Below, piece after piece: positions 161 through 17,339 of a DNA stretch of 20,561 bases. Source of the stretch: a virus; the IMG/VR virus record IMGVR_UViG_3300027969_000492, positions 1 through 20,561 of that record. One strand, given 5' to 3'. Under the pieces are notes generated by a model. It ran no database searches. It was given only the letters and a program-made list of their open reading frames with translations, and was not told the DNA's origin. Position 1 is the stretch's first letter, and every line of letters starts with the position of its first letter. A program made the translations under genes and the position numbers.

Positions 161-188
161 GTAACTACATCAACAGATTGGAAGCCAA

Positions 189-789: not shown

Positions 790-857
790 CCCTTCGGGGT
801 CGACCCCCACCCATCTTAATAACATTAAGAGGGCTTTTTAAAATTCACGAGAAAAAA
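790..857 (+). repeat. Intergenic module copy 2
   Basis: CCCTTCGGGG hairpin running into GGGGTCGACCCC (796-807), then the hairpin CTTAAT-AAC-ATTAAG (815-829), then GAGGGCTTTTTAAAATTCACGAGAAAA, which continues into the promoter at 858. This is one of the clearest copies. Confidence 0.8.
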
Positions 858-879
858 TGTCGTACCCTTGTGCTATAGT
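858..879 (+). promoter_or_regulatory. PafBC-type promoter for 905-1201
   Basis: TGTCGTAC (858-865), N8 ending TGTGC, TATAGT (874-879). Predicted +1 is A886, giving the leader ATCAACCTAAAGGAG. The -35 region is an A-run. Confidence 0.75.
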
Positions 880-904
880 AAAACTATCAACCTAAAGGAG
901 AAAA

Positions 905-1201
905 ATGTTCACTCTAAATAACATCACTAAGACCGCCGACCACTCTGCCTATTTAGTTTCATCAAAGGCTTGCCCAACTTGTGATGATGTAATCACTATT
1001 GAGATTGCCCCTGACAAATTATTTTTATACAATCAGGGTGGCTATGCTCAAGATGTTCTTGATGGTTTTGAGCCTGATACTCGTGAGCGTTTTATTACAG
1101 GTACTTGCGGTGATTGTTGGAACGCTATGTTTGGACAAGGTGATTTAGATTACCTTATTGACGACTATGCTGAAGCATCACTATTTGGTTGGGAAAACTA
1201 A
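905..1201 (+). CDS. Small protein with two Cys pairs (zinc-ribbon-like)
   Basis: The protein has 98 residues. Cys pairs CPTC (about residues 23-26) and CGDC (about 68-71) are spaced like the two knuckles of a zinc ribbon, with a beta-rich stretch between them (ITIEIAPDKLFLY). The C-terminus is acidic and aromatic. A strong SD (AAAGGAG) ends four bases before the ATG. It is a single-gene unit between two intergenic modules. No function can be assigned; zinc-ribbon mini-proteins in phages often bind nucleic acid or host RNA polymerase, but nothing here proves that. Confidence 0.85.
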   Translation: MFTLNNITKTADHSAYLVSSKACPTCDDVITIEIAPDKLFLYNQGGYAQDVLDGFEPDTRERFITGTCGDCWNAMFGQGDLDYLIDDYAEASLFGWEN

Positions 1202-1208
1202 AACCACC

Positions 1209-1281
1209 AGCCCTTCGGGGCAGGGGGGCGACCCCCCTCACTTAATGACATTAAGAGAGCTTTTTAAATTTCACCAAAAAA
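1209..1281 (+). repeat. Intergenic module copy 3
   Basis: CCCTTCGGGG, then GGGGGGCGACCCCCC (1223-1237), then a perfect hairpin CTTAAT-GAC-ATTAAG (1241-1255), then GAGCTTTTTAAATTTCACCAAAAA up to the promoter. A weak stop-straddling pairing, TGGTT (1186-1190) with AACCA (1202-1206), precedes it. Confidence 0.8.
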
Positions 1282-1303
1282 TGTCGTACCCCTGTGGTAT
1301 GAT
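1282..1303 (+). promoter_or_regulatory. PafBC-type promoter for 1330-2017 operon
   Basis: TGTCGTAC (1282-1289), N8 ending TGTGG, TATGAT (1298-1303). Predicted +1 is A310 in this thousand (1310), leader ATAAACCAAAAGGAG. Confidence 0.75.
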
Positions 1304-1329
1304 GAAATCATAAACCAAAAGGAGAAAAA

Positions 1330-1569
1330 ATGACAGACAAGAAATCACTCGCAGACCTTACCGATGAATTGGTAAATGTTATGTATGAATTGGATAAGGC
1401 AAAATACTCACGACCTGAGCGCATACACGGTTGGATTAAAACAAGTTATCTTTTGGCTTTTGGTTTGGACAACAATTTAGGCAAGCGACAACTTGCCAAC
1501 ACTTTACAACGACAAATTGACGAAGCAAGGCAAGAATTGTCAGACCTATGTGCTAAGGTAGAGGTATGA
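1330..1569 (+). CDS. Unknown 79-aa helical protein
   Basis: First gene of a three-gene operon. The sequence is predicted to be mostly helical, with an N-terminal Asp/Glu/Lys-rich helix and a C-terminal helix (LQRQIDEARQELSDL) of coiled-coil character. There are no Cys pairs and no membrane segment. AAGGAG sits seven bases before the ATG. The stop overlaps the start of the next gene. Not recognised. Confidence 0.75.
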   Translation: MTDKKSLADLTDELVNVMYELDKAKYSRPERIHGWIKTSYLLAFGLDNNLGKRQLANTLQRQIDEARQELSDLCAKVEV

Positions 1570-1706
1570 AAAAGTTAATCACCACAACAGCAACACCAGA
1601 GCAATTACAAGCACGATTAGAGTTACGCCGTAGCAACGCAAGCGGTGGACACAAAAATAAAAAAGCCTACACTCGCAAAACAAAACATAAAGGAATAGGA
1701 TACTAA
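1566..1706 (+). CDS. Small very basic protein, 46 aa
   Basis: ATG at 1566 overlaps the previous TGA (ATGA), and its TAA overlaps the next ATG (TAATG), so both junctions support it as a real gene. Thr-rich start (MKKLITTTATP), a short helix with Arg-Arg, then a Gly/Lys/Arg/His tail (GGHKNKKAYTRKTKHKGIG). It is strikingly basic among acidic neighbours and is probably nucleic-acid binding; that role is inferred from charge alone. Confidence 0.65.
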   Translation: MKKLITTTATPEQLQARLELRRSNASGGHKNKKAYTRKTKHKGIGY

Positions 1707-2017
1707 TGGGAAATCAAACAGCAATCTCAATCTCAGAAACAGACATCACTTTGGAACAGCAAATTGCTTGGCACTTGCAAGGCAATCACTATCCACCAAT
1801 TCCAACAACTATGGTTCAGCCTTGTATTGACGCTATTGACGCATACAATGAAGATAACCCTAGTTTAGAAATTGAAATGCCTGAAGGTGTATTCTACAAG
1901 GGCAACACCACCGCCCCTGCTTGGGCAATCATTGAACAGCATCACCTAGATGCTTGGTGCTATTCTGAAGACTACATAGATGACGCTTGGCTTGACGAAG
2001 ATGAGGACTCTGAGTAG
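1706..2017 (+). CDS. Unknown acidic 103-aa protein
   Basis: Last gene of the operon. A helix EQQIAWHLQGNHYPPIP is followed by a Pro-rich turn, then MVQPCIDAIDAYNEDNP, and the protein ends in a run of Asp/Glu (DDAWLDEDEDSE). The amphipathic start and proline turn look like a small folded alpha/beta protein, but I cannot name a family. Its last codons form one arm of a hairpin across the stop codon. Confidence 0.8.
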   Translation: MGNQTAISISETDITLEQQIAWHLQGNHYPPIPTTMVQPCIDAIDAYNEDNPSLEIEMPEGVFYKGNTTAPAWAIIEQHHLDAWCYSEDYIDDAWLDEDEDSE

Positions 2018-2022
2018 TCCTC
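2003..2022 (+). terminator. Hairpin across the stop codon of 1706-2017
   Basis: GAGGACT (2003-2009) pairs perfectly with AGTCCTC (2016-2022). The TAG (2015-2017) lies at the loop/stem border. The CCCTTCGGGG and GGGGTCGACCCCC elements follow. Confidence 0.5.
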
Positions 2023-2107
2023 ACCCTTCGGGGTCGACCCCCGCAGCCGATCCTATTACGATAGCTTCAAAAATTGCCTGGAATTTAAGGTGTTTTGGTA
2101 CCAAAAA
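2023..2107 (+). repeat. Intergenic module copy 4
   Basis: CCCTTCGGGG, then GGGGTCGACCCCC (2030-2042), then CTAT-TACG-ATAG (2053-2064) with AGCTTCAAAAATTG. The downstream part is diverged (CCTGGAATTTAAGGTG) before the promoter. Confidence 0.7.
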
Positions 2108-2129
2108 TGTCAGACCCTTGTGGTAGAGT
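2108..2129 (+). promoter_or_regulatory. PafBC-type promoter, leaderless gene 2136
   Basis: TGTCAGAC (2108-2115), N8 ending TGTGG, TAGAGT (2124-2129). The seventh base after the -10 is the A of the ATG at 2136, so the transcript should have no leader. Confidence 0.75.
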
Positions 2130-2135
2130 ATCACT

Positions 2136-2276
2136 ATGGAAACAATAAAAAAGATTCTAGATTATTTTGACCAAAATGGTTTTTACCATTCCGACCTAAT
2201 TGAATACCACATTGGTTGCTGTGAGTGTGAAATTGCTTATGCAAATACACAGCCGACCAAGCACTATGAACACTAA
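2136..2276 (+). CDS. Unknown 46-aa protein with CCEC motif
   Basis: Leaderless: the ATG coincides with the predicted +1, and no SD exists. The N-terminal helix (METIKKILDYFDQNGFY) leads to YHIGCCECEIAYAN, with three Cys in four residues and several His, so metal binding is plausible. It is a single gene, followed within five bases by the next promoter. Not recognised. Confidence 0.6.
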   Translation: METIKKILDYFDQNGFYHSDLIEYHIGCCECEIAYANTQPTKHYEH

Positions 2277-2279
2277 AAA

Positions 2280-2301
2280 TGTCAGACCCCTATGATAAGG
2301 T
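2280..2301 (+). promoter_or_regulatory. PafBC-type promoter, leaderless whiB-like gene 2308
   Basis: TGTCAGAC (2280-2287), N8, TAAGGT (2296-2301). The ATG at 2308 is exactly the seventh base after the -10. The promoter directly abuts the stop of 2136-2276, with no palindrome or box between them. Confidence 0.75.
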
Positions 2302-2307
2302 GGAACT

Positions 2308-2514
2308 ATGTTTCAAGATAAAGCAAACTGCCTAAAGGCAGACACCAATCTTTTCTTTTCTGAATTGAAAAGCAAAGTAGCAAAAGCAAAAGAAATCTGT
2401 AACTCTTGTTTAGTAATAAATGAGTGTTTACAGTTTTCAATAGACAACAACATTGAACACGGAACTTTTGGTGGACTAACCGAAAGCGAACGAAAGGGAT
2501 TACTAAATGTGTAA
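2308..2514 (+). CDS. whiB: WhiB-like Fe-S transcription factor
   Basis: The protein has 68 residues. Cysteines C8, C31, C34 and C40 give the WhiB arrangement C...CxxCx5C that holds a 4Fe-4S cluster. GTFGG at 52-56 is the G-[VITF]-[WF]-G-G turn, which is followed by an ESERKG basic patch. Wbl proteins bind the sigma-A C-terminal domain and alter promoter choice; phage versions (for example TM4 WhiB) are known to interfere with host WhiB2. This one is shorter than host Wbl proteins and lacks a long C-terminal tail. It is expressed as a leaderless mRNA and overlaps the next mini-gene. It may regulate the host or the phage's own module promoters. Confidence 0.85.
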   Translation: MFQDKANCLKADTNLFFSELKSKVAKAKEICNSCLVINECLQFSIDNNIEHGTFGGLTESERKGLLNV

Positions 2515-2605
2515 GGTTCACCCAATCATAAATGTAACCGATAGAGATAACCCAACCTGTATGCTATGCGGTGCAAGCGTACCAGAAGCGAGAGATGATT
2601 ACTAA
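2507..2605 (+). CDS. Mini-protein with CxxC knuckle, 32 aa
   Basis: The start overlaps the stop of the WhiB gene by eight bases. MCKVHP opens the protein and TCMLCGASV follows around residues 17-25, so Cys2, His5, Cys18 and Cys21 could bind one zinc. It ends EARDDY. It is too short for most gene callers, but the coupling and Cys pattern resemble the mini-genes at 5474 and 13462. Confidence 0.55.
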   Translation: MCKVHPIINVTDRDNPTCMLCGASVPEARDDY

Positions 2606-2606
2606 A

Positions 2607-2819
2607 ATGGAATTTCAAACTAACTTATTTATTCAGTATGACCCACACCCAACAAACTATGCTAACCCCTATGAGTTTACAAATGTTCACCCAGACAATA
2701 AATACAAAATTGAAAATGGTATGTTGTCTTTTGAAACTGTAAGCGGTAACGAAATTATTTACATACCAGCCGAAAACATTTTATTTTTTTACACAACTTG
2801 CGAAAGGGTTGGTTCATAA
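2607..2819 (+). CDS. Unknown 70-aa protein
   Basis: I start it at the ATG just after the preceding stop (2607). An in-frame ATG at 2595 and a GTG at 2571 are alternatives but overlap the previous gene. The sequence is Tyr/Asn/Pro-rich at the front (YDPHPTNYANPYEFTNV) and beta-strand-like behind (GNEIIYIPAENILFFY). No family recognised. Its last codons form an 8-bp hairpin with sequence after the stop. Confidence 0.65.
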   Translation: MEFQTNLFIQYDPHPTNYANPYEFTNVHPDNKYKIENGMLSFETVSGNEIIYIPAENILFFYTTCERVGS

Positions 2820-2825
2820 CCAGCC
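2807..2825 (+). terminator. Hairpin across the stop codon of 2607-2819
   Basis: GGTTGGTT (2807-2814) pairs with AACCAGCC (2818-2825), one G-U pair, loop CAT. The TAA (2817-2819) spans the loop and the first stem bases. Confidence 0.5.
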
Positions 2826-2826
2826 C

Positions 2827-2918
2827 TCTCGGGGGGCGACCCCCCGCCCTTCCTTTTACGAAGGGCATAAAATTTCACCGAAAAATAAATAAAAAAAAAA
2901 TAAAAAAAGTCTTGAAAA
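2827..2918 (+). repeat. Intergenic module copy 5
   Basis: GGGGGGCGACCCCCC (2831-2845), then a 7-bp hairpin GCCCTTC-loop-GAAGGGC (2846-2866) with TTTTAC in the loop, then AAAATTTCACCGAAAAA and a long A-rich run up to the -35. Confidence 0.8.
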
Positions 2919-2940
2919 TGTCAGACCGTTGTGCTAAGAT
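2912..2940 (+). promoter_or_regulatory. Promoter for 2969-3121, best -35 in series
   Basis: TTGAAA (2912-2917), 17-bp spacer containing TGTCAGAC (2919-2926) and TGTGC, then TAAGAT (2935-2940). It combines a sigma-A -35 with the -26 TGTC element. Predicted +1 is A2947, leader AATCAACCGAAAGGAAG. Confidence 0.8.
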
Positions 2941-2968
2941 TATACTAATCAACCGAAAGGAAGCAAAA

Positions 2969-3121
2969 ATGGATAAATCATCTATTACAGTAGGCAGTAC
3001 CCTTACAACTCTAACCTCAAAGGTTACAGGACAGGTAAAGGAAATTGTCAAAAACGCAAATGGCTCTTTGCGTGTTCGTCTTGATGTAAATGGTCAAGAC
3101 CGTTGGACAACCGTAAAGTAG
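2969..3121 (+). CDS. Unknown 50-aa SH3/KOW-like beta protein
   Basis: ATG at 2969 follows GAAAGGAAG in the conserved leader; the longer upstream frame runs through the module and is discarded. The protein is all-beta in pattern (SSITVGSTLTTLTSKVTGQVKEIV, then SLRVRLDVNGQDRWTTVK). The V-G-S-x-V-T-G-x-V-x-E-I rhythm resembles small SH3-like or KOW barrels, which often bind RNA or DNA. That assignment is a fold guess only. Confidence 0.7.
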   Translation: MDKSSITVGSTLTTLTSKVTGQVKEIVKNANGSLRVRLDVNGQDRWTTVK

Positions 3122-3147
3122 TCTGATTGTGGGGGTATGGCAAAAAA

Positions 3148-3169
3148 TGTCATACCCCTGTGATAAGAT
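3148..3169 (+). promoter_or_regulatory. PafBC-type promoter for 3204-3674
   Basis: TGTCATAC (3148-3155), N8 ending TGTGA, TAAGAT (3164-3169). Predicted +1 is A3176 (ACAACCTACC...AAAGGA). It lies only 26 bases after the previous stop, with no palindrome. Confidence 0.75.
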
Positions 3170-3203
3170 TATTTTACAACCTACCAACAAAAAGGAAAAT
3201 AAA

Positions 3204-3674
3204 ATGGGATTAGACCAATACCTATCAGCAACCGAATACATTTCCCGATACGATTGGGATAACGACAACGACAACCGCAACGAATTGTTTTACCAGATTG
3301 TAGAGCAGTTTGGTGTTTCCGACCAAGTTTCTAAGGATAGTTTTGGCGGAATAAACATTGACTTCCCTATGGGTTATTGGCGTAAGTCAAATCAAATCCA
3401 TAATTGGTTTGTGGAAACCATTGGTAATGGTGTAGACGAGTGTCAGAAAATGTTTGTCAATCGTGAAAACCTAGAGGAATTGAAATCTTTGTGTGAGCAG
3501 GTTCTCGCAGATAATTCTTTAGCATCAGAACTTTTGCCAACAGCATCAGGTTTCTTTTTTGGTTCAACCGAATTTGACGAATACTATTTCGCAGACTTAA
3601 AGCACACGGTTGAAACGATTGACCGTTGCCTTGCTTCTAAGTTTGATTACTTTGAGTATCAGGCTTCTTGGTAA
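3204..3674 (+). CDS. Conserved-type phage protein of the MGLDxYL family
   Basis: The ATG at 3204 follows AAAGGAAAATAAA; the longer upstream frame would run through the promoter. The protein has 156 residues. It opens MGLDQYLSA, and later has MGYWRKSNQIHNWFV and GVDECQKMFV, the signature of a small protein found in many phages and some bacteria and known only as hypothetical. The conserved YWRKxNxIHxWF segment with its His and Trp residues may be a binding site, but no activity is established to my knowledge. It ends in an aromatic stretch (DYFEYQASW). Its 3' end pairs across the stop codon. Confidence 0.85.
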   Translation: MGLDQYLSATEYISRYDWDNDNDNRNELFYQIVEQFGVSDQVSKDSFGGINIDFPMGYWRKSNQIHNWFVETIGNGVDECQKMFVNRENLEELKSLCEQVLADNSLASELLPTASGFFFGSTEFDEYYFADLKHTVETIDRCLASKFDYFEYQASW

Positions 3675-3678
3675 AGCC
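3662..3678 (+). terminator. Short hairpin across the stop codon of 3204-3674
   Basis: GGCTT (3662-3666) pairs with AAGCC (3674-3678), loop CTTGGTA, with the TAA (3672-3674) at the loop edge. It lies just before the tRNA pair and could mark the processing end of a joint transcript. Confidence 0.35.
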
Positions 3679-3681
3679 ACC

Positions 3682-3753
3682 GCCCCCATCGTCTATTGGT
3701 TAGGATTTCACGCTTTCATCGTGAAGGACAGGGTTCAATTCCCTGTGGGGGTA
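3682..3753 (+). tRNA. tRNA-Glu (UUC)
   Basis: Acceptor GCCCCCA (3682-3688) pairs with TGGGGGT (3746-3752), with a G-U first pair and discriminator A753. The anticodon arm is TCACG-CTTTCAT-CGTGA, giving anticodon UUC (Glu, GAA/GAG). The T arm is CAGGG-TTCAATT-CCCTG. CCA is not encoded. The two codons it reads are abundant in the acidic proteins around it. Confidence 0.92.
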
Positions 3754-3757
3754 CTAA

Positions 3758-3834
3758 GGTCTCATAGCATAATTGGTTAATGCACCACCCTGTCACGGTG
3801 GAGAGTGCGGGTTCGAATCCCGCTGGGATCGCCA
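3758..3834 (+). tRNA. tRNA-Asp (GUC)
   Basis: Acceptor GGTCTCA pairs with TGGGATC (two G-U pairs), discriminator G, and CCA is encoded (3832-3834). The anticodon arm is CCACC-CTGTCAC-GGTGG, anticodon GUC (Asp). The T arm is GCGGG-TTCGAAT-CCCGC. It begins four bases after tRNA-Glu, so both are likely cut from one precursor read through from 3204-3674. Confidence 0.93.
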
Positions 3835-3837
3835 AAG

Positions 3838-3905
3838 CTGGGGGGCGACCCCTCACCCTTATATTTACGAAGCTTCCAAAAATTCACCGAAAAAAGTCTT
3901 GAAAA
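3838..3905 (+). repeat. Intergenic module copy 6
   Basis: GGGGGGCGACCCC (3840-3852), then ATATTTACGAAGCTTCC, then AAAAATTCACCGAAAAAAG, and the -35 at 3899. This is close to the consensus box. It follows the tRNA pair rather than a protein gene. Confidence 0.8.
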
Positions 3906-3927
3906 TGTCGGTGGTATGTGATAGAGT
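3899..3927 (+). promoter_or_regulatory. Exact PafBC-motif promoter, leaderless gene 3934
   Basis: TTGAAA (3899-3904), 17-bp spacer, TAGAGT (3922-3927). Inside the spacer TGTCGGTG (3906-3913)-N8-TAGAGT fits the published RecA-independent damage motif tTGTCRgtg-N8-TAnnnT at every conserved position except the leading T, which is A. The seventh base after the -10 is the ATG at 3934. Confidence 0.85.
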
Positions 3928-3933
3928 TTCACT

Positions 3934-4326
3934 ATGAGTTACATTAAACGCCTACTAGAGGAAATTGAGGAACTACCTGTGTCTTTTAAGATTACAACCG
4001 CTATTGAAACAACCTATGATGAACTTGACATTATCCGAGAAATGCTTGCCACAGGTGAGTATGGATTTGGTTTGTCAGACATTACAACCGAAGCAGTTAT
4101 TGACTTTATTGGTCGCCTAGAGTTTGGTTCTGATGTTATGTATAACAACACAACACACACAACATTCGCTAAGGCTGTTACATACCGTATCTATGATGAA
4201 AACGGTTCAGGTGATTTCTTTAACCGTTCGTTTGACGGTGTATCAGAAAACATTAGAAACGCACAAAATGGAACAGACCCAGAAGCATTAAAGAAACTTC
4301 TTGGTGGATACTTTGAGGGGGAATAA
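3934..4326 (+). CDS. Unknown 130-aa protein
   Basis: Leaderless, with the ATG at predicted +1. It begins with an acidic helix (MSYIKRLLEEIEELPVSF), has a central helical region (TYDELDIIREMLATGEYG, then TEAVIDFIGRLEFG) and a C-terminal Asn/Gly-rich part ending LLGGYFEGE. No Cys pair or membrane segment, and no family recognised. The stop is coupled (TAATG) to 4326-4532. Confidence 0.8.
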   Translation: MSYIKRLLEEIEELPVSFKITTAIETTYDELDIIREMLATGEYGFGLSDITTEAVIDFIGRLEFGSDVMYNNTTHTTFAKAVTYRIYDENGSGDFFNRSFDGVSENIRNAQNGTDPEALKKLLGGYFEGE

Positions 4327-4532
4327 TGAGAGCAACAATCAGTCGTCAATACCGAGAGGGTAATTGGTCAATTTATTCAGAGGACATAGACCACCATTGG
4401 GAAAGGTTTTTAGAAGTTTGCCCATTTGAGTTTGATAAAGAAATCGCTTTGCACCGTTGGTATGCTGAGGGATTTATTCAGGCACTATTTGGTAGTGGTG
4501 CTCAATTAAGCATAGAATGGCAAAATAATTAA
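4326..4532 (+). CDS. Unknown 68-aa protein
   Basis: Coupled to the preceding gene by TAATG. It is rich in Trp and His (NWSIYSEDIDHHWERF, LHRWYAEGF) and contains one Cys. It is probably a small alpha/beta protein and I do not recognise it. The next promoter begins ten bases after its stop, without a terminator palindrome. Confidence 0.75.
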   Translation: MRATISRQYREGNWSIYSEDIDHHWERFLEVCPFEFDKEIALHRWYAEGFIQALFGSGAQLSIEWQNN

Positions 4533-4541
4533 AAAAAAGTC

Positions 4542-4570
4542 TTGAAAATGTCAGACCTATCTGATAAGAT
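4542..4570 (+). promoter_or_regulatory. Promoter for 4603-5265 operon
   Basis: TTGAAA (4542-4547), 17-bp spacer with TGTCAGAC (4549-4556), TAAGAT (4565-4570). Predicted +1 is A4577, leader ATAAACCTACCGAAAGAG. Confidence 0.8.
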
Positions 4571-4602
4571 AATCTTATAAACCTACCGAAAGAGAGAAAA
4601 TA

Positions 4603-4935
4603 ATGGGTGCTAGAGTACACTTTTTATTCAATGACGGAACTGATAATTCCGTAGTGCTTTATTCACATTGGGGCGAGGATAGTTGGCAACAAGACTTAGC
4701 CAAAGCAATTCGTCACGCACAACCACGCTTGGGTGATACATCATACTTTACTCGTATGGTTATTTCACACCTTATTCAGAACGAACTACTTGATGAAACA
4801 GGCTATGGTATTTATGCCATAGACCCAAGAGCAGCCAACGCAGTAATTTCTGATGAATTAGTTGAGATTGACTTAGTAAAAGAAACTGTAAATGGTTATT
4901 CATTTGACAGTATGATGATTTGGCAGGAAGCGTAA
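4603..4935 (+). CDS. Unknown 110-aa phage protein
   Basis: The leader ends GAAAGAGAGAAAATA before the ATG. The sequence starts with a beta hairpin (GARVHFLFNDGTDNSVVLYS) leading into HWGEDSW, then a helix (QQDLAKAIRHAQPRL). Similar proteins with a V-V-L-Y-S-H-W-G strand occur in other phages as far as I recall, always without a known function. It starts a three-gene coupled operon. Confidence 0.8.
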   Translation: MGARVHFLFNDGTDNSVVLYSHWGEDSWQQDLAKAIRHAQPRLGDTSYFTRMVISHLIQNELLDETGYGIYAIDPRAANAVISDELVEIDLVKETVNGYSFDSMMIWQEA

Positions 4936-5129
4936 TGACACATTATTTCGCAACAGACGGAAACTATGGTGACGGTACAGGTATGATTATGCTAGTCACC
5001 GATAATTGGACAGAAGAAATGTGGGAACTAATTGCTAGTGTTACTGATAGCAATCGCATCATTGTTGCTCATAGGTTTGCTCACGGCTATACAGTAGATG
5101 AAATAGAAAAGGAATTATTTAATGGATAA
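4935..5129 (+). CDS. Unknown 64-aa protein
   Basis: I use the ATG at 4935, which overlaps the previous stop (TAATG), rather than the in-frame start at 4920. The protein is Asp/Gly-rich at the front (YFATDGNYGDGTGMIML), with WTEEMWELIASVTD in the middle. It overlaps the next gene by eight bases. Not recognised. Confidence 0.75.
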   Translation: MTHYFATDGNYGDGTGMIMLVTDNWTEEMWELIASVTDSNRIIVAHRFAHGYTVDEIEKELFNG

Positions 5130-5265
5130 AGCAGTTTATGAATTACTAGCAGAGTGGTATCCAGATGGTGTATTCACAGAAGATGAACTTTGGGAAGTGA
5201 TTGCCGAAGTTGATGGTCATAAACAAGATTACTATGCAGATGGTGATTTGACCGAGTGGCTTTAA
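5122..5265 (+). CDS. Unknown acidic 47-aa protein
   Basis: The start lies inside the end of the previous gene. It is almost wholly acidic (EDELWEVIAEVDGHK, ADGDLTEWL). The final Leu-stop codons form the hairpin GTGGCT-TTA-AGCCAC. Not recognised; it is supported by the coupling and its acidic composition, like its neighbours. Confidence 0.65.
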   Translation: MDKAVYELLAEWYPDGVFTEDELWEVIAEVDGHKQDYYADGDLTEWL

Positions 5266-5270
5266 GCCAC
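5256..5270 (+). terminator. Hairpin across the stop codon of 5122-5265
   Basis: GTGGCT (5256-5261), loop TTA, AGCCAC (5265-5270). The TAA (5263-5265) sits in the loop. CCCTTCGGGG and the palindrome follow at once. Confidence 0.5.
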
Positions 5271-5341
5271 CCCTTCGGGGTCGACCCCCCTAGCTCTCAT
5301 TTACGAGAGATCTAAAAATTCACCGAAAAAAGTCTTGTTTT
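5271..5341 (+). repeat. Intergenic module copy 7
   Basis: CCCTTCGGGG, GGGGTCGACCCCCC (5277-5290), hairpin CTCTC-ATTTAC-GAGAG (5294-5309), AGATCTAAAAATTCACCGAAAAAAG. A near-consensus copy. Confidence 0.85.
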
Positions 5342-5363
5342 TGTCGTACCTATGGTGTATAGT
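5335..5363 (+). promoter_or_regulatory. Promoter for 5474-6308 operon
   Basis: TTGTTT (5335-5340), 17-bp spacer with TGTCGTAC (5342-5349), TATAGT (5358-5363). Predicted +1 is about T5370, immediately before the long inverted repeat at 5371. Confidence 0.75.
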
Positions 5364-5369
5364 AGTATT

Positions 5370-5473
5370 TGTATGTGGGGCTAATACCACTAGACGGTAC
5401 GAGAAAATGGTTGAAATTCTAGAACTAAAGACCAGTTCCCCACATACTAACAACCTACTGCAAAGGAATAGAA
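5370..5473 (+). promoter_or_regulatory. Structured 5' leader of 5474 operon
   Basis: The ~104-nt leader is unlike the short leaders elsewhere. GTATGTGGGG (5371-5380) pairs perfectly with CCCCACATAC (5438-5447), closing 57 bases in which TACC/GGTA and CTAGA/TCTAG can also pair. The outer helix starts at the predicted 5' end. CAACCTACTGCAAAGGA then carries the SD. It may be an RNA-stability element, a ribosome-access switch or a riboswitch-like receptor. I cannot match it to a known riboswitch class. Confidence 0.55.
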
Positions 5474-5647
5474 ATGTCAGAACAATGTACCGAGTGTGGA
5501 AACACTTACCGCTCACAAATAGTGTGGAAATCAGAACTACCTAATTTTATGGTAGAGGACTTAACCCCAGAACAATTAGCAAATCTAATAGATTGTTTAG
5601 ATGAAGCGGTTGAAATTGTCGCAACAGATTTTGGTGTTGGTCAGTAA
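5474..5647 (+). CDS. 57-aa protein with CxxC motif
   Basis: AAAGGA lies seven bases before the ATG. MSEQCTECGNTYRSQ is half a zinc ribbon, followed by an acidic helix LTPEQLANLIDCLDEAVE. The next gene has a similar ending (LSPEATKQLLKMLEEAGY), so the two may share a helical module. First gene after the long structured leader; it begins a six-gene chain of stop/start overlaps. Confidence 0.65.
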   Translation: MSEQCTECGNTYRSQIVWKSELPNFMVEDLTPEQLANLIDCLDEAVEIVATDFGVGQ

Positions 5648-5748
5648 TGATAGATTGGGAAGCCATTATAGATTGGGAAGCAGTAGATAGTCTGTCACCC
5701 GAAGCAACCAAGCAGTTACTAAAAATGTTAGAGGAAGCAGGTTACTAA
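5647..5748 (+). CDS. Acidic 33-aa mini-protein with internal repeat
   Basis: TAATG junctions on both sides. It begins with a near repeat (MIDWEAIIDWEAVDSL) and ends with an acidic helix like that of 5474-5647. Too short to assign. Confidence 0.55.
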   Translation: MIDWEAIIDWEAVDSLSPEATKQLLKMLEEAGY

Positions 5749-5915
5749 TGCCTAAGTATTTATTTGTATCTAAACGAACTACCGATTTTGAGGACATTGT
5801 GGAAGCAGACACACAAGATGAAGCGGTAAAGATTTTTGAGGAACTTATCGCTGATGAAATGAACATAGTAGACCAGTATTTTCAGTATGGCACTTATGGA
5901 TTGGAAGTAGACTAA
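5748..5915 (+). CDS. 55-aa protein, EAD-x-EA family
   Basis: TAATG junctions on both sides. The layout is a beta strand (PKYLFVSKRTTDFEDIVEA), then DTQDEAVKIFEEL, then a strand ending YGLEVD. The pattern Y-x-V...E-A-D-x-x-x-E-A recurs at 9110-9292 and 9707-9871, suggesting a paralogous family of small ferredoxin-like proteins. Function unknown. Confidence 0.7.
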   Translation: MPKYLFVSKRTTDFEDIVEADTQDEAVKIFEELIADEMNIVDQYFQYGTYGLEVD

Positions 5916-6109
5916 TGCAGTATCATTATGTAGTTATGTATGATGAAGATACAGATAAGTTTGAGATAGATGTTGATACCACTTTCACATTATTTCAAGA
6001 CGGTGTTGCCTTTGACCTTACTCATCAAGAATGGCATTTGAATGATGAACTTATGGAAGCAGATTATTTAGACTATGGACAAATGCTACACGATAAGTTG
6101 GGTGCATAA
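5915..6109 (+). CDS. Unknown acidic 64-aa protein
   Basis: TAATG overlap at both ends. The pattern is beta (QYHYVVMYDEDTDKFEIDVD), then helical (HLNDELMEADYLDYGQML). It is very acidic. Not recognised. Confidence 0.7.
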   Translation: MQYHYVVMYDEDTDKFEIDVDTTFTLFQDGVAFDLTHQEWHLNDELMEADYLDYGQMLHDKLGA

Positions 6110-6246
6110 TGTCTAACTATGAAGATGGGTTTCAAGATGGTATCCGCCACCATAAAGATGAATTGTTAGCGTGGGCAGATACCTTTGAGGATTTTGAGAA
6201 CTACCAGCATTTTTATGAATTGCTAATTGAAAAGTTGGAGCAGTGA
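6109..6246 (+). CDS. Unknown 45-aa protein
   Basis: Starts at TAATG and ends in TGA overlapped by the GTG of the next micro-gene. It opens NYEDGFQDGIRHHKDELLAW, a pattern like the YxxGxxxG helices also seen at 11157-11342, and ends EKLEQ. It is probably a helical hairpin. Not recognised. Confidence 0.6.
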   Translation: MSNYEDGFQDGIRHHKDELLAWADTFEDFENYQHFYELLIEKLEQ

Positions 6247-6308
6247 AATATTTTATTTGGATAATTTTTATCTTATTATTTCTTGGTGGGCTGAGTAGTA
6301 AACTCTAG
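6243..6308 (+). CDS. Micro-ORF: membrane peptide, 21 aa
   Basis: GTG start overlapping the previous TGA. Its sequence, starting MKYFIWIIFILLFLGG, is a single membrane segment very like the 20-aa peptide at 722-784, including the K-x-F-I-W-I start. It ends GLSSKL and lacks the lipobox Cys. Both copies lie at the end of an operon and immediately before a module. A small membrane-acting peptide is likely, but its job is unknown. Confidence 0.5.
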   Translation: MKYFIWIIFILLFLGGLSSKL

Positions 6309-6312
6309 CCCA
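6287..6312 (+). terminator. Hairpin across the stop codon of 6243-6308
   Basis: TGGGCT (6287-6292) pairs with AGCCCA (6307-6312), extended by GAGT/ACTC with one bulged T. The TAG (6306-6308) is within the right arm. Confidence 0.5.
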
Positions 6313-6391
6313 TCGGGGGTCGACCCCCCGCAGCTCTATTTACGATAGATCTAAAAATTCACGAAAGTTTCCTGAAATAAACCTTGATTAT
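6309..6391 (+). repeat. Intergenic module copy 8
   Basis: GGGGGTCGACCCCCC (6315-6329), hairpin TCTAT-TTACG-ATAGA (6335-6349), then TCTAAAAATTCACGAAAG. A 20-base insert (TTTCCTGAAATAAACC) precedes the promoter. Confidence 0.8.
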
Positions 6392-6413
6392 TGTCGTACC
6401 CTTGTGCTATGAT
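6384..6413 (+). promoter_or_regulatory. Promoter for DUF932-like gene
   Basis: TGTCGTAC (6392-6399), N8 ending TGTGC, TATGAT (6408-6413). TTGATT (6384-6389) is an imperfect -35 at 18 bp. Predicted +1 is A6420, leader ATCAAACAAACGAAAGGA. Confidence 0.75.
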
Positions 6414-6443
6414 TAGTTTATCAAACAAACGAAAGGAAATAAA

Positions 6444-7436
6444 ATGGCGATTGACCAGATTGAAATCATCAACGGTAAGGCTTCTTACGCTTCTTTGCGT
6501 ACACCTGCCTACCACCAACTTGGAACTGTTTTCCAAGATGAAGTTACAACTTCAGAAATGCTATCTTTAGCAAACCTAGATAATTGGAATGTTCACCTAG
6601 AGGACATTCCGCTACCCGATAACTATTCATCAACAACTAATAACTTTCTAGTTGTGCGTGACCACCCAGAGGACAAGCACCCAGATGTTTTGTCTGTTGT
6701 TGGACAGCGTTACAAGACTTTGCAAAACGAGGAATTGTTTGCTTTCGGTGACAACCTGCTTGACGGTGGTCGTTGGGAAGTTGCTGGCTCATTGAAAAAT
6801 GGTCGTGTTGTCTTTGGTGCATTAGCCCTAGAGCGTGAAACCGTACTTGACCCAAATGGTGTTCGTGATGTTATCAAGAATTACCTTGCTATCTCTACTA
6901 GCCACGATGGTTCTAGTGCTGTTCAGGCAACAGTTACACCAATTCGTTTGACCTGTATGAATACTCACACCGCCGTATTCCGTAAGGGTGCTAATCAGTC
7001 ATTCAAGTTGCGACACACACAGTCTATTGACGGTAGAGTTGCACAGGCTCGCGAAGCATTAGGTTTGGCTAACAAGTACCTTGATGAGTTTGACAAACTT
7101 GCACACGCTATGATTGAAACTGAAATCAGCAAAGCACAGTTTGACCAGATTGTTTCTCTTGCATACCCAATGCCAGAAGCAGACAAAAAGGGTGCTATGA
7201 AAAAGTGGGAAAATAAACTTGACCTACTTGAGGAAATCTATGTTGGCGATACCAACGGTATGATTGCTGGCAACGCTTGGGGTGCTTACAATGCACTTAC
7301 AGAACGCCTTGATTGGTTCAGAACTTCTCGCGGTAATGACGAAAGTCTACTTATGGGTACGGCAGGTTTTGACCCTGTTGTGAACGCAGAGAAAAATAAA
7401 CTATTGTCAATCGTAACTGAAGTGGCTGGGGTATAA
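6444..7436 (+). CDS. DUF932 / phage-plasmid-like protein
   Basis: The protein has 330 residues, the usual size for this family. The recognisable parts are an N-terminal segment with RTPAYHQLGTVFQDEVTTSE, the central VVGQRYKTLQNEELFAF block, the ISTSHDGSSAVQATVTPIRL stretch followed by TCMNT, and the C-terminal GNAWGAYNALTERLDW. These are hallmarks of the DUF932 / TIGR03299-type phage/plasmid protein. The family is widespread in phages and plasmids, often near replication or recombination genes, and has no settled function. SD GAAAGGA ends seven bases before the ATG. This is the longest plus-strand gene. Its stop codon sits in the loop of an 8-bp hairpin. Confidence 0.88.
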   Translation: MAIDQIEIINGKASYASLRTPAYHQLGTVFQDEVTTSEMLSLANLDNWNVHLEDIPLPDNYSSTTNNFLVVRDHPEDKHPDVLSVVGQRYKTLQNEELFAFGDNLLDGGRWEVAGSLKNGRVVFGALALERETVLDPNGVRDVIKNYLAISTSHDGSSAVQATVTPIRLTCMNTHTAVFRKGANQSFKLRHTQSIDGRVAQAREALGLANKYLDEFDKLAHAMIETEISKAQFDQIVSLAYPMPEADKKGAMKKWENKLDLLEEIYVGDTNGMIAGNAWGAYNALTERLDWFRTSRGNDESLLMGTAGFDPVVNAEKNKLLSIVTEVAGV

Positions 7437-7453
7437 CCCCCAGCCCTTCGGGG
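7424..7453 (+). terminator. Hairpin across DUF932 stop plus CCCTTCGGGG-TTTT
   Basis: GGCTGGGG (7424-7431) pairs perfectly with CCCCAGCC (7438-7445), and the TAA (7434-7436) is in the loop. An alternative hairpin CCC-TTCG-GGG (7444-7453) followed by TTTT competes for the same C-run. A translating ribosome at the stop would favour the second. Confidence 0.6.
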
Positions 7454-7532
7454 TTTTCAGCCCTTCGGGGTCGACCCCCCGATCCCCTATTTACGAAGCT
7501 CCCAAAAATTCACTGAAAAAAACTATTGTTTT
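7454..7532 (+). repeat. Intergenic module copy 9
   Basis: A second CCCTTCGGGG at 7461, GGGGTCGACCCCCC (7467-7480), CTATTTACGAAGCTCCC, AAAAATTCACTGAAAAAAA up to the -35. A consensus copy, but without a clear stem around TTACGA. Confidence 0.85.
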
Positions 7533-7554
7533 TGTCTGACCCCTGTGCTAAGAT
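7526..7554 (+). promoter_or_regulatory. Promoter for 7585-8836 operon
   Basis: TTGTTT (7526-7531), 17-bp spacer with TGTCTGAC (7533-7540), TAAGAT (7549-7554). Predicted +1 is A7561, leader ATCAACCTACCGAAAGGA. Confidence 0.75.
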
Positions 7555-12815: not shown

Positions 12816-12844
12816 TAGACAATCAGCATATACTCTGATATAAT
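12816..12844 (+). promoter_or_regulatory. Sigma-A promoter, leaderless gene 12851
   Basis: TAGACA (12816-12821), 17-bp spacer, TATAAT (12839-12844) with TGA extension. The seventh base after the -10 is the A of ATG 12851. Confidence 0.8.
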
Positions 12845-12850: not shown

Positions 12851-13021
12851 ATGACTATTGTACAAACAGCAAGAAAAGAACTTGATGACTATATAAAGGA
12901 AAACAATCTTGTATTATCCTCTAAAGAATATGAAGAGATGTTTATTAATCTCTATGGGAAGTATATAGATCGTCTTCTGACTAACCCGCCAAAATCTAAG
13001 AGAAAGAATGGACTACGTTGA
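12851..13021 (+). CDS. Unknown 56-aa protein by the origin
   Basis: Leaderless. The sequence is helical and Lys-rich at the end (TIVQTARKELDDYIKEN, then IDRLLTNPPKSKRKNGLR), with a basic C-terminal tail that could touch DNA. It is the first gene after the origin-like region and overlaps the next start (TTGA). Confidence 0.65.
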   Translation: MTIVQTARKELDDYIKENNLVLSSKEYEEMFINLYGKYIDRLLTNPPKSKRKNGLR

Positions 13022-13290
13022 GCGATAAAGCTATAAGAAAGTTAGCCCTTGAATGGTTATCTCACCCTACTACTGAAATATACGGTAAACAATTAATGTG
13101 GGCTTTTACAGAAGTACCTACACTATGGGAAAAGTTTGAAAAAGAGGAAGAAATGGAAAAATTACAAGAATTAAAAGAAGCCATATATAAGCTTCATTAT
13201 AAGGTAGAACATATATATGATAAGCAGTCTTGTTGTCAATGTGGTCAGCAATATCCTTGTGCTACCCTCCGTTTGTTGGATAAACATTAA
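13018..13290 (+). CDS. 90-aa protein with C-terminal Cys motif
   Basis: TTG start, overlapping the previous stop (TTGA). A helical body includes AIRKLALEWLSHPTTEIYGK and an acidic coiled stretch (EKEEEMEKLQELKEAIYKL). It ends with CCQCGQQYPCATLRLL, four Cys that probably bind zinc. Similar small Cys-tail proteins are frequent in actinobacterial phages as far as I recall. TAATG to the next gene. Confidence 0.75.
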   Translation: MSDKAIRKLALEWLSHPTTEIYGKQLMWAFTEVPTLWEKFEKEEEMEKLQELKEAIYKLHYKVEHIYDKQSCCQCGQQYPCATLRLLDKH

Positions 13291-13475
13291 TGAATATTAA
13301 AGAGTTTTTAGAGATTATGGGTAAGTCTATTCCTGGTATAGAAACAGAGATGGGTAGGCAGTTAACTCCAGAGGAAACCCGCCAAATTATTAGAGGTGCT
13401 ATTACTAAATGGAATCTAACCAATCCAGATGAATGGTTAGTTATACCTGCGGAGTTTACCGATGATAAAGTGTGA
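13290..13475 (+). CDS. Unknown 61-aa protein
   Basis: Coupled to the preceding gene (TAATG). EFLEIMGKSIPGIETEMG followed by TPEETRQIIRGAIT suggests two helices, then a Trp-containing strand end. Not recognised. Confidence 0.7.
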   Translation: MNIKEFLEIMGKSIPGIETEMGRQLTPEETRQIIRGAITKWNLTNPDEWLVIPAEFTDDKV

Positions 13476-13560
13476 TGTTTGTAGCAAGAAAATAGATATC
13501 TGGTTTCCAGATAAAGGTATAAATAAATGTGACAAATGCCACATTACAGGAGCGAAATGA
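13462..13560 (+). CDS. 32-aa zinc-ribbon mini-protein
   Basis: ATG at 13462 overlaps the previous gene by 14 bases. MIKCDVCSKK and KCDKCHITG give two CxxC knuckles about 19 residues apart, with a WFP strand between, as in a minimal zinc ribbon. Its TGA is overlapped by the next ATG. Confidence 0.65.
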   Translation: MIKCDVCSKKIDIWFPDKGINKCDKCHITGAK

Positions 13561-13649
13561 TGCTAATTATAGAATCTTTAGTGCTATTCTTTGTAGCACT
13601 TAATTGTGTATATAATATCAAAAAGTATTACGAGGACAAGAAAAAATGA
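13557..13649 (+). CDS. 30-aa single-pass membrane peptide
   Basis: Overlaps both neighbours (ATGA at each end). Hydrophobic MMLIIESLVLFFVALNCVYN followed by a basic/acidic end (IKKYYEDKKK), so the C-terminus is probably cytoplasmic. Unrelated in sequence to the micro-peptides at 722 and 6243. It sits directly before the Ntn-hydrolase gene. Confidence 0.6.
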   Translation: MMLIIESLVLFFVALNCVYNIKKYYEDKKK

Positions 13650-14164
13650 CGGTAATTGTAGGACTATTAGATAATGGTGTTGTTCATCTATGTGCCGATA
13701 GAGGTATATCAGATGACGATATCATTGTTTCTATGTCTGCTCCTAAGATCCGTCAAAATGGTGCATATATCATTGGGTATGCCGATTGTCCTGGAACAGG
13801 ACAGTTATTGCATCATATGACACTACCTACTCCACCTAAAAGAAATACAGAAAAGTTTATGAAAACTACCTTTGTAACTGCGGTACGCAAAGCATTGGTA
13901 GATTCAGGTGTGGATTTAAAAGAAAATGCTCACGCTTCATTTTTAATTGGAGTGTCTTCAGAGCTTTATTTAATGGATACTTCAGATTGGCAAGTATTGC
14001 CTTTGGAGTATATGGCTATTGGTTCGGGGGCATCTATTGCTATGGGATCATTGTATACCACCGCCGTATGGAAATCAGCCGAAAAGAGAGTTAAGACAGC
14101 AGTTTCTGCTGCTATAGAACTGTCTCCTGGCTGTAGAGGTCCATTGGATTATCTGGCGGTTTAG
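13646..14164 (+). CDS. Proteasome/HslV-like Ntn-hydrolase
   Basis: The protein has 172 residues, close to HslV (about 175). After removal of Met1, the new N-terminus is Thr (MTVIVGLL). With that Thr as residue 1, Asp is at 17 (HLCADRG) and Lys at 33 (SAPKI), which are the catalytic T1, D17 and K33 of proteasome beta subunits and HslV. The AIGSGASIAMG block at 124-134 is the conserved Gly-Ser-Gly helix start. No propeptide is present, as in HslV. A cognate unfoldase is not seen in this window. It may be a peptidase or an inactive relative that subverts host proteolysis. It is the last gene of the operon, coupled by ATGA, and faces a convergent gene. Confidence 0.8.
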   Translation: MTVIVGLLDNGVVHLCADRGISDDDIIVSMSAPKIRQNGAYIIGYADCPGTGQLLHHMTLPTPPKRNTEKFMKTTFVTAVRKALVDSGVDLKENAHASFLIGVSSELYLMDTSDWQVLPLEYMAIGSGASIAMGSLYTTAVWKSAEKRVKTAVSAAIELSPGCRGPLDYLAV

Positions 14165-14186: not shown

Positions 14187-14582
14187 TTATTTGCGTAGTT
14201 TAAGTAGGGCAGCTAGGTCTTTAACCTTAGTGCCACCATCGTACTTCCAAGCATATCCTTCAGCAATCATTTGCTCATTAAGGGACTTGGCATCTGTGCC
14301 AATGAATAACCAACCTAAGATTCTTCCATACTTTTCAGAACTATCTGATTTTTCAGTTTGGATTACGATATGAGTAGCACCTTCAAGTTTGTGCTTTAGA
14401 TAATCTTTTGCTTCTAGTCCGAGTTTTTTCTCTGCTAGATCTTTTGTTCTTGATTCTGGCGTGTCTATTCCTGCGAGTCTGACTCGTGACGTAAATGAGA
14501 TATCAAATCCAAGATCAATTTCCACATCAATGGTGTCTCCGTCAACAACTTCCAAAACTCTCTTTACTGTATATTCGTACAT
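14187..14582 (-). CDS. Thermonuclease (SNase-like)
   Basis: I start it at the ATG at 14582; GTG at 14597 would add five residues and neither has a clear SD. From the ATG it has 131 residues. DGDTIDVEID (Asp14/16/19), RLAGIDTPESR (Arg35, Asp40, Glu43) and EKYGRILGWLF (Arg87) supply the calcium-binding and catalytic Asp, Glu and Arg residues of staphylococcal nuclease. No signal peptide, so it may act inside the host, for example on DNA. Lies downstream of the glycan operon's terminator, so it needs its own promoter or read-through; TGTGG-TACACT just upstream is a weak -10 candidate. Confidence 0.88.
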   Translation of the reverse strand: MYEYTVKRVLEVVDGDTIDVEIDLGFDISFTSRVRLAGIDTPESRTKDLAEKKLGLEAKDYLKHKLEGATHIVIQTEKSDSSEKYGRILGWLFIGTDAKSLNEQMIAEGYAWKYDGGTKVKDLAALLKLRK

Positions 14583-14603
14583 ACTTAAGTGTACCACAGA
14601 GAT

Positions 14604-14697: not shown

Positions 14698-15246
14698 TTA
14701 TTCATTCCAAAAAATACCTTTTCTAGAAAAATTTTGATCGTGAAAGTTATATTTCCAAGTAATATCATTTATTTTCTTAAAACTATAACCAGCAGATGCA
14801 AGTTTCTTCCACATTAAATAATCACACTCTTGTACAGGATCAAAGCCACCTACATTAATCATAGCCTCTGTTCTAACAAGTGCTGTAATTGGAACAATAC
14901 AATGCTCCTGTAATAATTCTTGAGAAAACTCTTGAGCGTATTGAATAGCATTTATTGGATCTTCTAAAGTACCATTACTAAAAATAACATCATAATCGGA
15001 GCAGTACTCGGAAAGCTTACTTAAATGATCTGGGTATAGAATATCATCATCATCAAGAAAGCATACCCATTCAGTGGTAACTGAGTTTAATAATTGATTA
15101 TAGGTCCAGTGATTACCCTTATGGTTTGTGTCTACCACTATCTTATGTGCTACTGGTTTTAGTTCTTGGTTAGCCACCGACTCTATAGCATTTATTAACA
15201 TTTCTTTACGTCTTGGAATGCTTGCTGTTAATACTGTTATGTTCAT
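14698..15246 (-). CDS. Family 2-like glycosyltransferase
   Basis: The protein has 182 residues, a minimal GT-A domain. The N-terminal Rossmann-like strand (NITVLTASIPRRKEML) is followed by VCFLDDDDILYPDH, whose DDDD at residues 65-68 is the metal/nucleotide-binding DxD region. VIFSNG and VGGFD...CDYLMWKKL match the acceptor-side ED motif region of GT2 enzymes. It transfers a sugar from a nucleotide sugar; the acceptor is unknown. TAATG to the upstream epimerase. The protein is short for the family, but the ORF is intact. Confidence 0.85.
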   Translation of the reverse strand: MNITVLTASIPRRKEMLINAIESVANQELKPVAHKIVVDTNHKGNHWTYNQLLNSVTTEWVCFLDDDDILYPDHLSKLSEYCSDYDVIFSNGTLEDPINAIQYAQEFSQELLQEHCIVPITALVRTEAMINVGGFDPVQECDYLMWKKLASAGYSFKKINDITWKYNFHDQNFSRKGIFWNE

Positions 15247-16112
15247 TAAACTATTCCTTCTAATGCCATCTTAATTCCTTGCTCTAAACTAATTTTTGGT
15301 GTATAAAAACTAAGCATTTTAGTTGGATCTGCAACACGATATGTAACTCCGACTGGAGCAGTTTTAATATAATTAAATTCTGGACTATAATTATTAAGAT
15401 TAGAAACTGTTGATGCTAATTCTCTAAATGTAGTGGCTATGCCAGAGCCTAGATTAATTGGACCAATAATATCTAACTCAATAGCCTTGTCTACCGCATC
15501 TACAATATCTTGCATATGTATAAAGTCTCTAACCTGATACCCATCTCCCCAAATATCAAACGGATTATCTTTCCTTAATGCTCTTGCAATGTAAGATGGG
15601 AATGGATAGTCAAGGTCTTGGTCCGTACCGTACCCTGAAAATGGACGGAATATGTGTGTGCGAATACCTGCCTCTTGTGCAAACCTAGCAAGATATTCTC
15701 CTGTAAGTTTTGCCCAACCATAAGTTAAGTCTGGATTTGATATAGCGTGTAAGTCTAGCATCTGCTCTGAAAGTCTTGATGGATTTGCACCAGTTTGGAA
15801 CTTTGTTGGATAGGCAGCAGAAGAACTAAAATAAACAATTCTTCCTGGTCTTGTACGCATAGCCCAGTTAAACATCTCTGCATCGATAGATAGGTCTGTT
15901 GCTACAGAAAGCGGATTACCTTCAATAGTTATCCTGCCACCAACAATAGCAGCAAGATGAATTACCATATCAAAATATGAGTTATCATCTTTAAAGAAAT
16001 CACGACAGTCATTACCTTCTTTAAGGTCAATACCTACAATGTCGTGATCTTTATACTTACGCATAAAGTATCCACCAACAAAACCTTTATGTCCAGTAAT
16101 TAAAATTCTCAT
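15246..16112 (-). CDS. NAD-dependent sugar epimerase/dehydratase
   Basis: The protein has 288 residues, of the extended SDR type. ILITGHKGFVGGYF has the G7-G10-G13 NAD(P)-binding loop. YFSSSAAYP (residues 94-102) supplies the catalytic Ser. Y131-G-W-A-K135 is the YxxxK pair. GYQVRDFIHMQDIVDAV is the typical substrate-side block. It resembles GDP-fucose synthase and UDP-sugar epimerases; I cannot fix the substrate. It would act on a nucleotide-sugar in the cytoplasm. ATGA overlap with the neighbouring gene 16109. Confidence 0.9.
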   Translation of the reverse strand: MRILITGHKGFVGGYFMRKYKDHDIVGIDLKEGNDCRDFFKDDNSYFDMVIHLAAIVGGRITIEGNPLSVATDLSIDAEMFNWAMRTRPGRIVYFSSSAAYPTKFQTGANPSRLSEQMLDLHAISNPDLTYGWAKLTGEYLARFAQEAGIRTHIFRPFSGYGTDQDLDYPFPSYIARALRKDNPFDIWGDGYQVRDFIHMQDIVDAVDKAIELDIIGPINLGSGIATTFRELASTVSNLNNYSPEFNYIKTAPVGVTYRVADPTKMLSFYTPKISLEQGIKMALEGIV

Positions 16113-16762
16113 ATTTTTTTTATTTTTTCTAAATCTAACTCAAACTGATTGTTTATATAATCTGAAAATGCAACTTGGTCGGCACTATACATTGATGGAT
16201 CATTAACCTCTGAATATAATTCATCAACTTCTGACTTACCAAGAGTATAATGCATATGTTCAATAATTACATCTGGATGATAGTAGATTGCATCAAGTTT
16301 TTTTCCAAGTAATAGCCAAAAGTCATCAAGGTATAGGTGTTTTTGATTAGGTGGAGCCATATATCCTATTGCACTAATAATATTAGAAGATATCATTACT
16401 GATGTAGGAAGATTTTCTTTTTGAAAAAGATCATTTCCATAAGCTAATCCTTTATTTCCAATGCTAGAAGATAAAGTTACATCCCAATCTTTTGTTCTAA
16501 TTCTATGATCGTCTCCCATAAAAACAATATAATCATAGTCTTTTAAATATTTTAGTGCTACATAATTTAATGTACCGTTCATTCCCATTCTAGGGTTAAC
16601 TTCATACAACACTCCATCAATTCTTGGATAGTTATCTGCATCATCTTCATCTATTGCAAACATTAAATCTGTTATAGACGAGTTTTCTATAAAAGATTTA
16701 TAAAAATCAAGCGAGGCTTTTGATCTACTTCTAGTTGGTACAATTAATAATACTTTATTCAT
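16109..16762 (-). CDS. GT-A-like protein, probable glycosyltransferase
   Basis: The protein has 217 residues. NKVLLIVPTRSRSKASLDF and LMFAIDEDDADNYP look like the nucleotide-binding start of GT-A folds, and YIVFMGDDHRIRTKDWD carries GDD at residues 83-85 as a DxD candidate. LYLDDFWLLLGKKL is a second acidic block. The C-terminal tail is acidic and helical. A strong SD (AAAGGAG) lies in the upstream gene. The family fit is weaker than that of 14698-15246. Confidence 0.72.
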   Translation of the reverse strand: MNKVLLIVPTRSRSKASLDFYKSFIENSSITDLMFAIDEDDADNYPRIDGVLYEVNPRMGMNGTLNYVALKYLKDYDYIVFMGDDHRIRTKDWDVTLSSSIGNKGLAYGNDLFQKENLPTSVMISSNIISAIGYMAPPNQKHLYLDDFWLLLGKKLDAIYYHPDVIIEHMHYTLGKSEVDELYSEVNDPSMYSADQVAFSDYINNQFELDLEKIKKI

Positions 16763-17339
16763 TTGTCTCCTTTATACATAATAAAATCTGTGACCATTCA
16801 GTAAGCTTTGTATCTATAACTTTATATCCATTATTTTCTATAAGTTCTTTGTATCCTTCAACATCCCAAGCCCAAAGATGATATTCATAATGAGATTCAT
16901 CGTTTTCTATATATGGACTAGATGCAATTAAGAACTTTGAAGGTAAGTTTTTTATAGTTTTATGGGGGTCTTCTAGATGCTCTAACACTTCTGTCATAAC
17001 TGCAATATCAGCATATTCTATATCGTTATTTTTAAAATCAGTATACCGAGCATCCACAAGTCTTACATTTTTAGCATAGTCAATATTTGTTGGCATAAGG
17101 TCGTAGCCCCAAGACTTATAAGGTTCATCTTTAATTAAATATAATAAACCACCATCACCACAACCTAAGTCTACTATGGTTTTGCCACCCATATTTATAG
17201 CTTTTAATACAAAGTCTTTAGTAATTAATAATCTTTCAATGTGTGTTGATTCTTCTAAATGATGAGCAGACTCTCTATCTTTATACCAATCACTACTTAC
17301 AAAATCAATATTTTCTTTATTGAATAACTTCCATTCCAT
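16755..17339 (-). CDS. Class I SAM-dependent methyltransferase
   Basis: The protein has 194 residues. Motif I is TIVDLGCGDGGLLYL (residues 54-68). GYDL gives the motif II acidic residue, VMTEVLEHLEDP is a typical motif IV/V-type block, and the final strands close the sheet. The VxEVLEHxxDP pattern fits methyltransferases of the UbiE/Methyltransf_11/23 type, often found in sugar or lipid pathways. In this operon it probably methylates a sugar or glycan; that is inferred from context. GAGGAG of its SD overlaps the stop of 17342. Confidence 0.88.
   Translation of the reverse strand: MEWKLFNKENIDFVSSDWYKDRESAHHLEESTHIERLLITKDFVLKAINMGGKTIVDLGCGDGGLLYLIKDEPYKSWGYDLMPTNIDYAKNVRLVDARYTDFKNNDIEYADIAVMTEVLEHLEDPHKTIKNLPSKFLIASSPYIENDESHYEYHLWAWDVEGYKELIENNGYKVIDTKLTEWSQILLCIKETNE

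Follow-up and report, generated by a model that had tools for sequence, protein, structure and literature searches.

The window analysed here is an entire virus record of 20,561 bases, probably an incomplete piece of a genome. On its plus strand, positions 13646 to 14164 hold an intact open reading frame (ORF) of 172 amino acids that starts Met-Thr (MTVIVGLLDNGVVHLCADRG...MSAPKIR...AIGSGASIAMGS...) and encodes a putative AAH-type proteasome-like Ntn hydrolase. Its predicted nucleophile is Thr2 in Met1 numbering, accompanied by Asp18, Lys34, and a GSG block at 126 to 128; with Met1 removed, these become Thr1, Asp17, Lys33, and GSG at 125 to 127, the numbering used below. An earlier note on this DNA had placed the Thr, Asp, Lys, and GSG residues at these sites and had remarked on an HslV-like length. 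The reading of the 172-aa frame bears out the former, and the latter agrees with several HslV chains in the PDB, which have 171 to 176 amino acids.

The hydrolase gene is the last of an operon (12851 to 14164) of very small genes, each of which abuts or overlaps the next. Directly upstream lies a micro-ORF of about 30 amino acids with one hydrophobic stretch (MMLIIESLVLFFVALNCVYNIKKYYEDKKK; 13557 to 13649, plus strand), whose stop overlaps the hydrolase ATG (ATGA); a similar hydrophobic micropeptide is encoded directly upstream of the hydrolase in related loci L002, L003, and L022 to L024. It is preceded by a 32-aa micro-ORF that overlaps its neighbors and in which we read two CxxC motifs (MIKCDVCSKKIDIWFPDKGINKCDKCHITGAK; 13462 to 13560, plus strand), and by a 61-aa protein with no assigned function (13290 to 13475, plus strand). 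In part of the phage clade to which the window belongs, a homolog of the latter shortly precedes the hydrolase, and in four loci the two directly abut. Wherever a clade locus extends far enough upstream, the start codon of the hydrolase touches or overlaps the preceding stop, with L036 as the one exception. We rejected a dedicated partner gene, since only some members of the clade have the 61-aa protein linked to the hydrolase and the gene immediately upstream varies by subclade.

A predicted sigma-70-like promoter for this operon, TAGACA-17-TATAAT with an extended −10 (12816 to 12844, plus strand), matches 11/12 consensus positions; in the scan overall, such sites were no more frequent than in shuffled sequence. 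The operon transcript would be leaderless, with its first ATG (12851) at or beside the predicted transcript start. Elsewhere in the window, the element TGTC[AG].ACC..TGTG.TA...T occurs in 10 copies, against 0.02 expected, all on the plus strand within positions 139 to 7554. Several copies of this promoter-like element, in the longer form TGTC[AG][GT]ACC[CT].TGTG.TA...T, lie 25 to 50 bp before ORF starts. Two sites, at 3905 and 9059, are one mismatch away from the consensus of the RecA-independent damage (PafBC-type) promoter. The earlier note had speculated about a link between the hydrolase and PafBC; PafBC-like promoters are indeed present at these two sites, but a search upstream of the hydrolase operon found none, which leaves the link unsupported for this gene; the predicted site there is an ordinary sigma-70-like one.

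Convergent with the hydrolase gene is that of an SNase-family nuclease (14187 to 14597, minus strand), its most regularly conserved neighbor. Beyond it, also on the minus strand, positions 14698 to 17339 hold genes for a glycosyltransferase, an NAD-dependent epimerase, and a methyltransferase, which probably make or modify a glycan. A pair of tRNA genes, one for Glu(ttc) and one for Asp(gtc), is located at 3682 to 3834. Because the window encodes two WhiB proteins and a DUF932 protein that is 50% identical to Streptomyces phage proteins, its host is probably actinobacterial.

Profile searches connect the hydrolase to known proteasome-like families. Residues 1 to 170 match PHROG 1040 ("peptidase HslV family"; E = 5e-19), which is also matched by 71/71 members of a broad family alignment. 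The Pfam Proteasome model gives the window protein 12.6 bits, under its cut-off of 22.4, and the protein scores below the NCBIfam HslV models. From sequence alone, a profile of the 71-sequence alignment matched solved structures of the betaproteobacterial proteasome homolog BPH (3.2e-7) and of HslV (1.1e-6). An AlphaFold2 model built on the same alignment (pLDDT 94.4, pTM 0.90) replaced one from a shallow alignment of 15 closely related sequences, which gave pLDDT 46 and was discarded. In the retained model, the strands and both helix pairs follow the order of the proteasome, and the β-sandwich core with flanking helices is the feature that characterizes the proteasome-like superfamily according to Fuchs et al. 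(2021, PMC8665760). Searched with Foldseek, it is nearest to BPH (TM 0.84/0.79, rmsd 3.0), matches HslV with an E value of about 3e-10, and aligns to predicted phage proteins with TM up to 0.93. As modeled, the hydrolase has the proteasome/HslV fold. The earlier note had asked for a structure prediction and named a model without this fold as the outcome that would count against it; that outcome did not arise. Its description of a phage-encoded Thr hydrolase of this fold is supported by the predicted structure together with the retained Thr and Lys.

Across the homologs, counted in 220 rows in which one contig can recur as overlapping fetches, Thr1 is kept in 215/215 and Lys33 in 217/217 of the rows with letters at those positions, and nearly all homologs start Met-Thr. 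Position 17 is Asp in 207/216 rows and Glu in the other 9/216, all of which belong to the window's phage clade (L017, L022 to L024, L028, L030, L033, L036, and L037); the window protein itself carries Asp17. Loss of the Thr, Asp, or Lys in homologs, which the earlier note had likewise named as evidence against its reading, did not occur: Asp is swapped solely for Glu, and the Glu17 members keep Thr1 and Lys33 in a gene that is still under purifying selection. Close pairs within the clade, including pairs with Glu17 in both members, have dN/dS of 0.08 to 0.18. By these values and the conserved catalytic positions, the protein is strongly constrained; together with the PHROG 1040 match and the BPH and HslV profile matches, they establish that the ORF is a genuine gene under selection and not a chance frame.

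The middle Ser of the GSG block is not kept across the family and is Cys in most of the 220 rows. At the residue aligned with the oxyanion Gly47, in a loop aligned by sequence only, the window protein has Asp and nearly all relatives have Ser, Thr, or Asp; in addition, the clade has AD[SC]PGTGQ where AAH has TSSFRMGQ. Given the replaced oxyanion Gly and the change of Asp17 to Glu in part of the clade, catalysis could be weak, specialized, or lost. The oxyanion hole is formed by backbone NH, so the replacement of Gly47 is no proof of lost activity.

AAH is the name given by Fuchs, Alva, and Lupas (2021, PMC8665760) to homologs across an alpha-proteobacterial/actinobacterial range. These authors reported AAH in many phages, in no actinobacteria-specific phage, and with no associated AAA+ proteins; they described clues to its function as limited and distinguished a second phage family, PPH, of about 140 amino acids and without helix H2. 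The window hydrolase likely belongs to the AAH type, as judged by its length, four helices, and bacterial relatives, a label that derives from taxonomy and features. Read from the ORF and the predicted structure, it is a group I subunit with four helices and with no propeptide, insertions, or C-terminal domain, and it is about 30 to 38% identical to canonical AAH. It shares a PHROG and a superclade with the alpha-proteobacterial/actinobacterial homologs but occupies a separate branch, in a comparison made without the reference AAH cluster. Rooting the tree on BPH places the 10 rows of the window clade on a branch of their own (SH-aLRT 96) near phage sequences L040 and L041, within the phage/AAH-type group and outside the canonical AAH branch.

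This clade comprises, besides the window, 27 further viral contigs at identities of at least 67% and is phage-only. Bacterial relatives outside it occur in Rhizobiales, Azospirillum, Frankia, Dactylosporangium, Actinomadura, and others. In GenBank, relatives also occur in phages of Moorella, Geobacillus, Vibrio, and Psychrobacter and in T5-like phages, several of them annotated as HslV or proteasome subunit. The phages of Actinobacteria Pumpernickel, Hum25, Pitbull, and DSL-LC01 carry relatives too, the host of the last being predicted, not observed. The earlier note had called phage peptidases of this fold little described, a view at odds with PHROG 1040, the annotated GenBank phage genes, and the report of Fuchs et al. 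(2021), which was the only directly relevant work in the literature that we searched on phage-encoded proteasome or HslV-like proteins. What is new about the hydrolase is its clade; in kind it belongs to a family that was already known. Phage proteasome homologs are widespread, in hundreds of viral contigs, and we found none that has been characterized. To judge from the window clade and from actinophages deposited of late, the gap in actinobacteria-specific AAH phages is narrowing.

Our best explanation, to which we assign a probability of about 0.62, is that the gene encodes a group I AAH-type homolog without a propeptide that serves as a Thr1 hydrolase in a closed HslV/BPH-like ring, without a dedicated phage ATPase, during actinobacterial infection. 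The analysis itself shows the ORF with its homology, its conservation under selection, and a fold by prediction; Met removal, catalysis, ring assembly, substrate class, and host are inferred. Deformylase and methionine aminopeptidase of the host would strip the fMet and leave Thr1 as the nucleophile, with Lys33 and Asp17 to activate it, within a four-layer alpha-beta-beta-alpha subunit. The subunits would most likely form a closed ring that hydrolyzes peptides or unstructured protein segments, with no ATPase dedicated to it by the phage, and would act during infection of the presumed actinobacterial host. Of the roles that the earlier note had suggested, degradation of host factors and competition with the host proteasome found no support in the analysis. 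Deformylation is required before Met removal can expose Thr1. In Vibrio phages L050, L053, and L059, the proteasome homolog follows a gene for peptide deformylase at a distance of two or three genes, which may be a coincidence.

The gene context of AAH in other phages would fit a different role. Among the large genes nearest to viral AAH genes, those of terminase and portal families are the most frequent, and TerL, portal, head protease, or capsid genes lie within about 4 kb of the AAH gene in at least 35 of 68 non-redundant viral loci (from the 80 loci nearest one query, with no random-placement control). Across loci L060 to L139, many phages have the AAH gene beside or between genes for terminase, portal, head protease, and capsid, and the gene occupies several places inside this packaging/head module. 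Such a context, which was not reported by Fuchs et al. (2021, PMC8665760), is a testable lead to function and would suit a hydrolase that processes phage proteins, perhaps during head assembly or packaging, instead of degrading them. We nonetheless consider this unlikely for the window protein. AAH phages with that context encode their own head maturation protease, the loci counted are those closest to a single query, and in Vibrio and T5-like phages the AAH gene lies among nucleotide-metabolism genes. The window clade has no terminase, portal, or head protease gene nearby; its neighbors are small ORFs, the SNase, and glycan genes. In bacterial loci, we found no conserved hydrolase neighbor apart from prophage terminases and the loci of close relatives.

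A search for AAA and AAA_2 domains found none in 17 related contigs (22 to 104 kb), while 14/14 control genomes were positive; the window and its relatives are fragments, and the absence of an ATPase there is no proof. The search for an HslU- or Mpa-like partner that the earlier note had recommended also came back empty in these 17 fragmentary contigs. With no ATPase of their own in the phage relatives, such hydrolases might pair with a host AAA+ unfoldase (Mpa/ARC, ClpX, or ClpC) and redirect host proteolysis: the fold is that of HslV, which depends on HslU, and Mpa and Clp ATPases are common in actinobacteria. We regard this pairing as quite unlikely, as no docking feature was identified in the hydrolase, and published work found neither an AAA+ partner for AAH nor an ATPase candidate in BPH genomes.

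A similarly small chance attaches to the clade being an actinophage-specific homolog with an altered active site, engaged, for example, in site-specific processing or ligation of a host or phage protein and not in general degradation. Very unlikely is a specialized or non-degradative Ntn enzyme (a ligase, amidase, or binding protein), for which the altered oxyanion position, the AD[SC]PGTGQ motif, and D17E in part of the clade would speak, as would the proteasome homolog connectase as an example that such drift is possible, but the predicted structure has no connectase-like insertion over the active site and its core and both helix pairs are standard.

Compared with named systems, the Thr1 hydrolase that we propose is most readily described beside AAH, with which it shares a compact group I subunit without a propeptide, the Thr1/Asp17/Lys33 set, a length of about 172 to 190 amino acids, four helices, and a known occurrence in phages; it differs in that its clade is separate and phage-only, lacks the T-S-S-F-R-M-G-Q motif, and has D17E in some members. 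BPH (PDB 5ovs, 5ovt, and 5ovu) offers the nearest solved fold (TM 0.84) and the top profile match and also has no unfoldase partner, but it is about 20% identical to the hydrolase, forms the tree outgroup, and retains the oxyanion Gly. Although its Thr1 was exposed, the purified BPH protein showed no activity toward standard peptides or casein; it did bind epoxomicin, and no ATPase candidate was found in BPH-containing genomes (published BPH work). HslV (ClpQ) shares the fold, the length, Thr1/Asp17/Lys33, and GSG, whereas no HslU was found with the hydrolase, which falls under the Pfam Proteasome cut-off and the NCBIfam HslV models. We rejected a canonical HslV, as the 17 related contigs, which are fragments, yielded no ATPase resembling HslU, ClpX, or Mpa and the curated models were not reached. 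PPH is likewise a group I homolog encoded by phages, but at about 140 amino acids it lacks H2, whereas the hydrolase has 172 amino acids and, in the predicted structure, a helix at residues 68 to 86; identity with PPH was rejected by length and helix H2 alone. The "protease" genes of Microbacterium phage Pumpernickel, Arthrobacter phages Hum25 and Pitbull, and Actinomycetia phage DSL-LC01, the last of which adjoins a whiB, belong to the same superfamily. Those placed in the tree fall on branches outside the window's, with long branches that make their placement unsure, and the window clade looks like a lineage apart from them.
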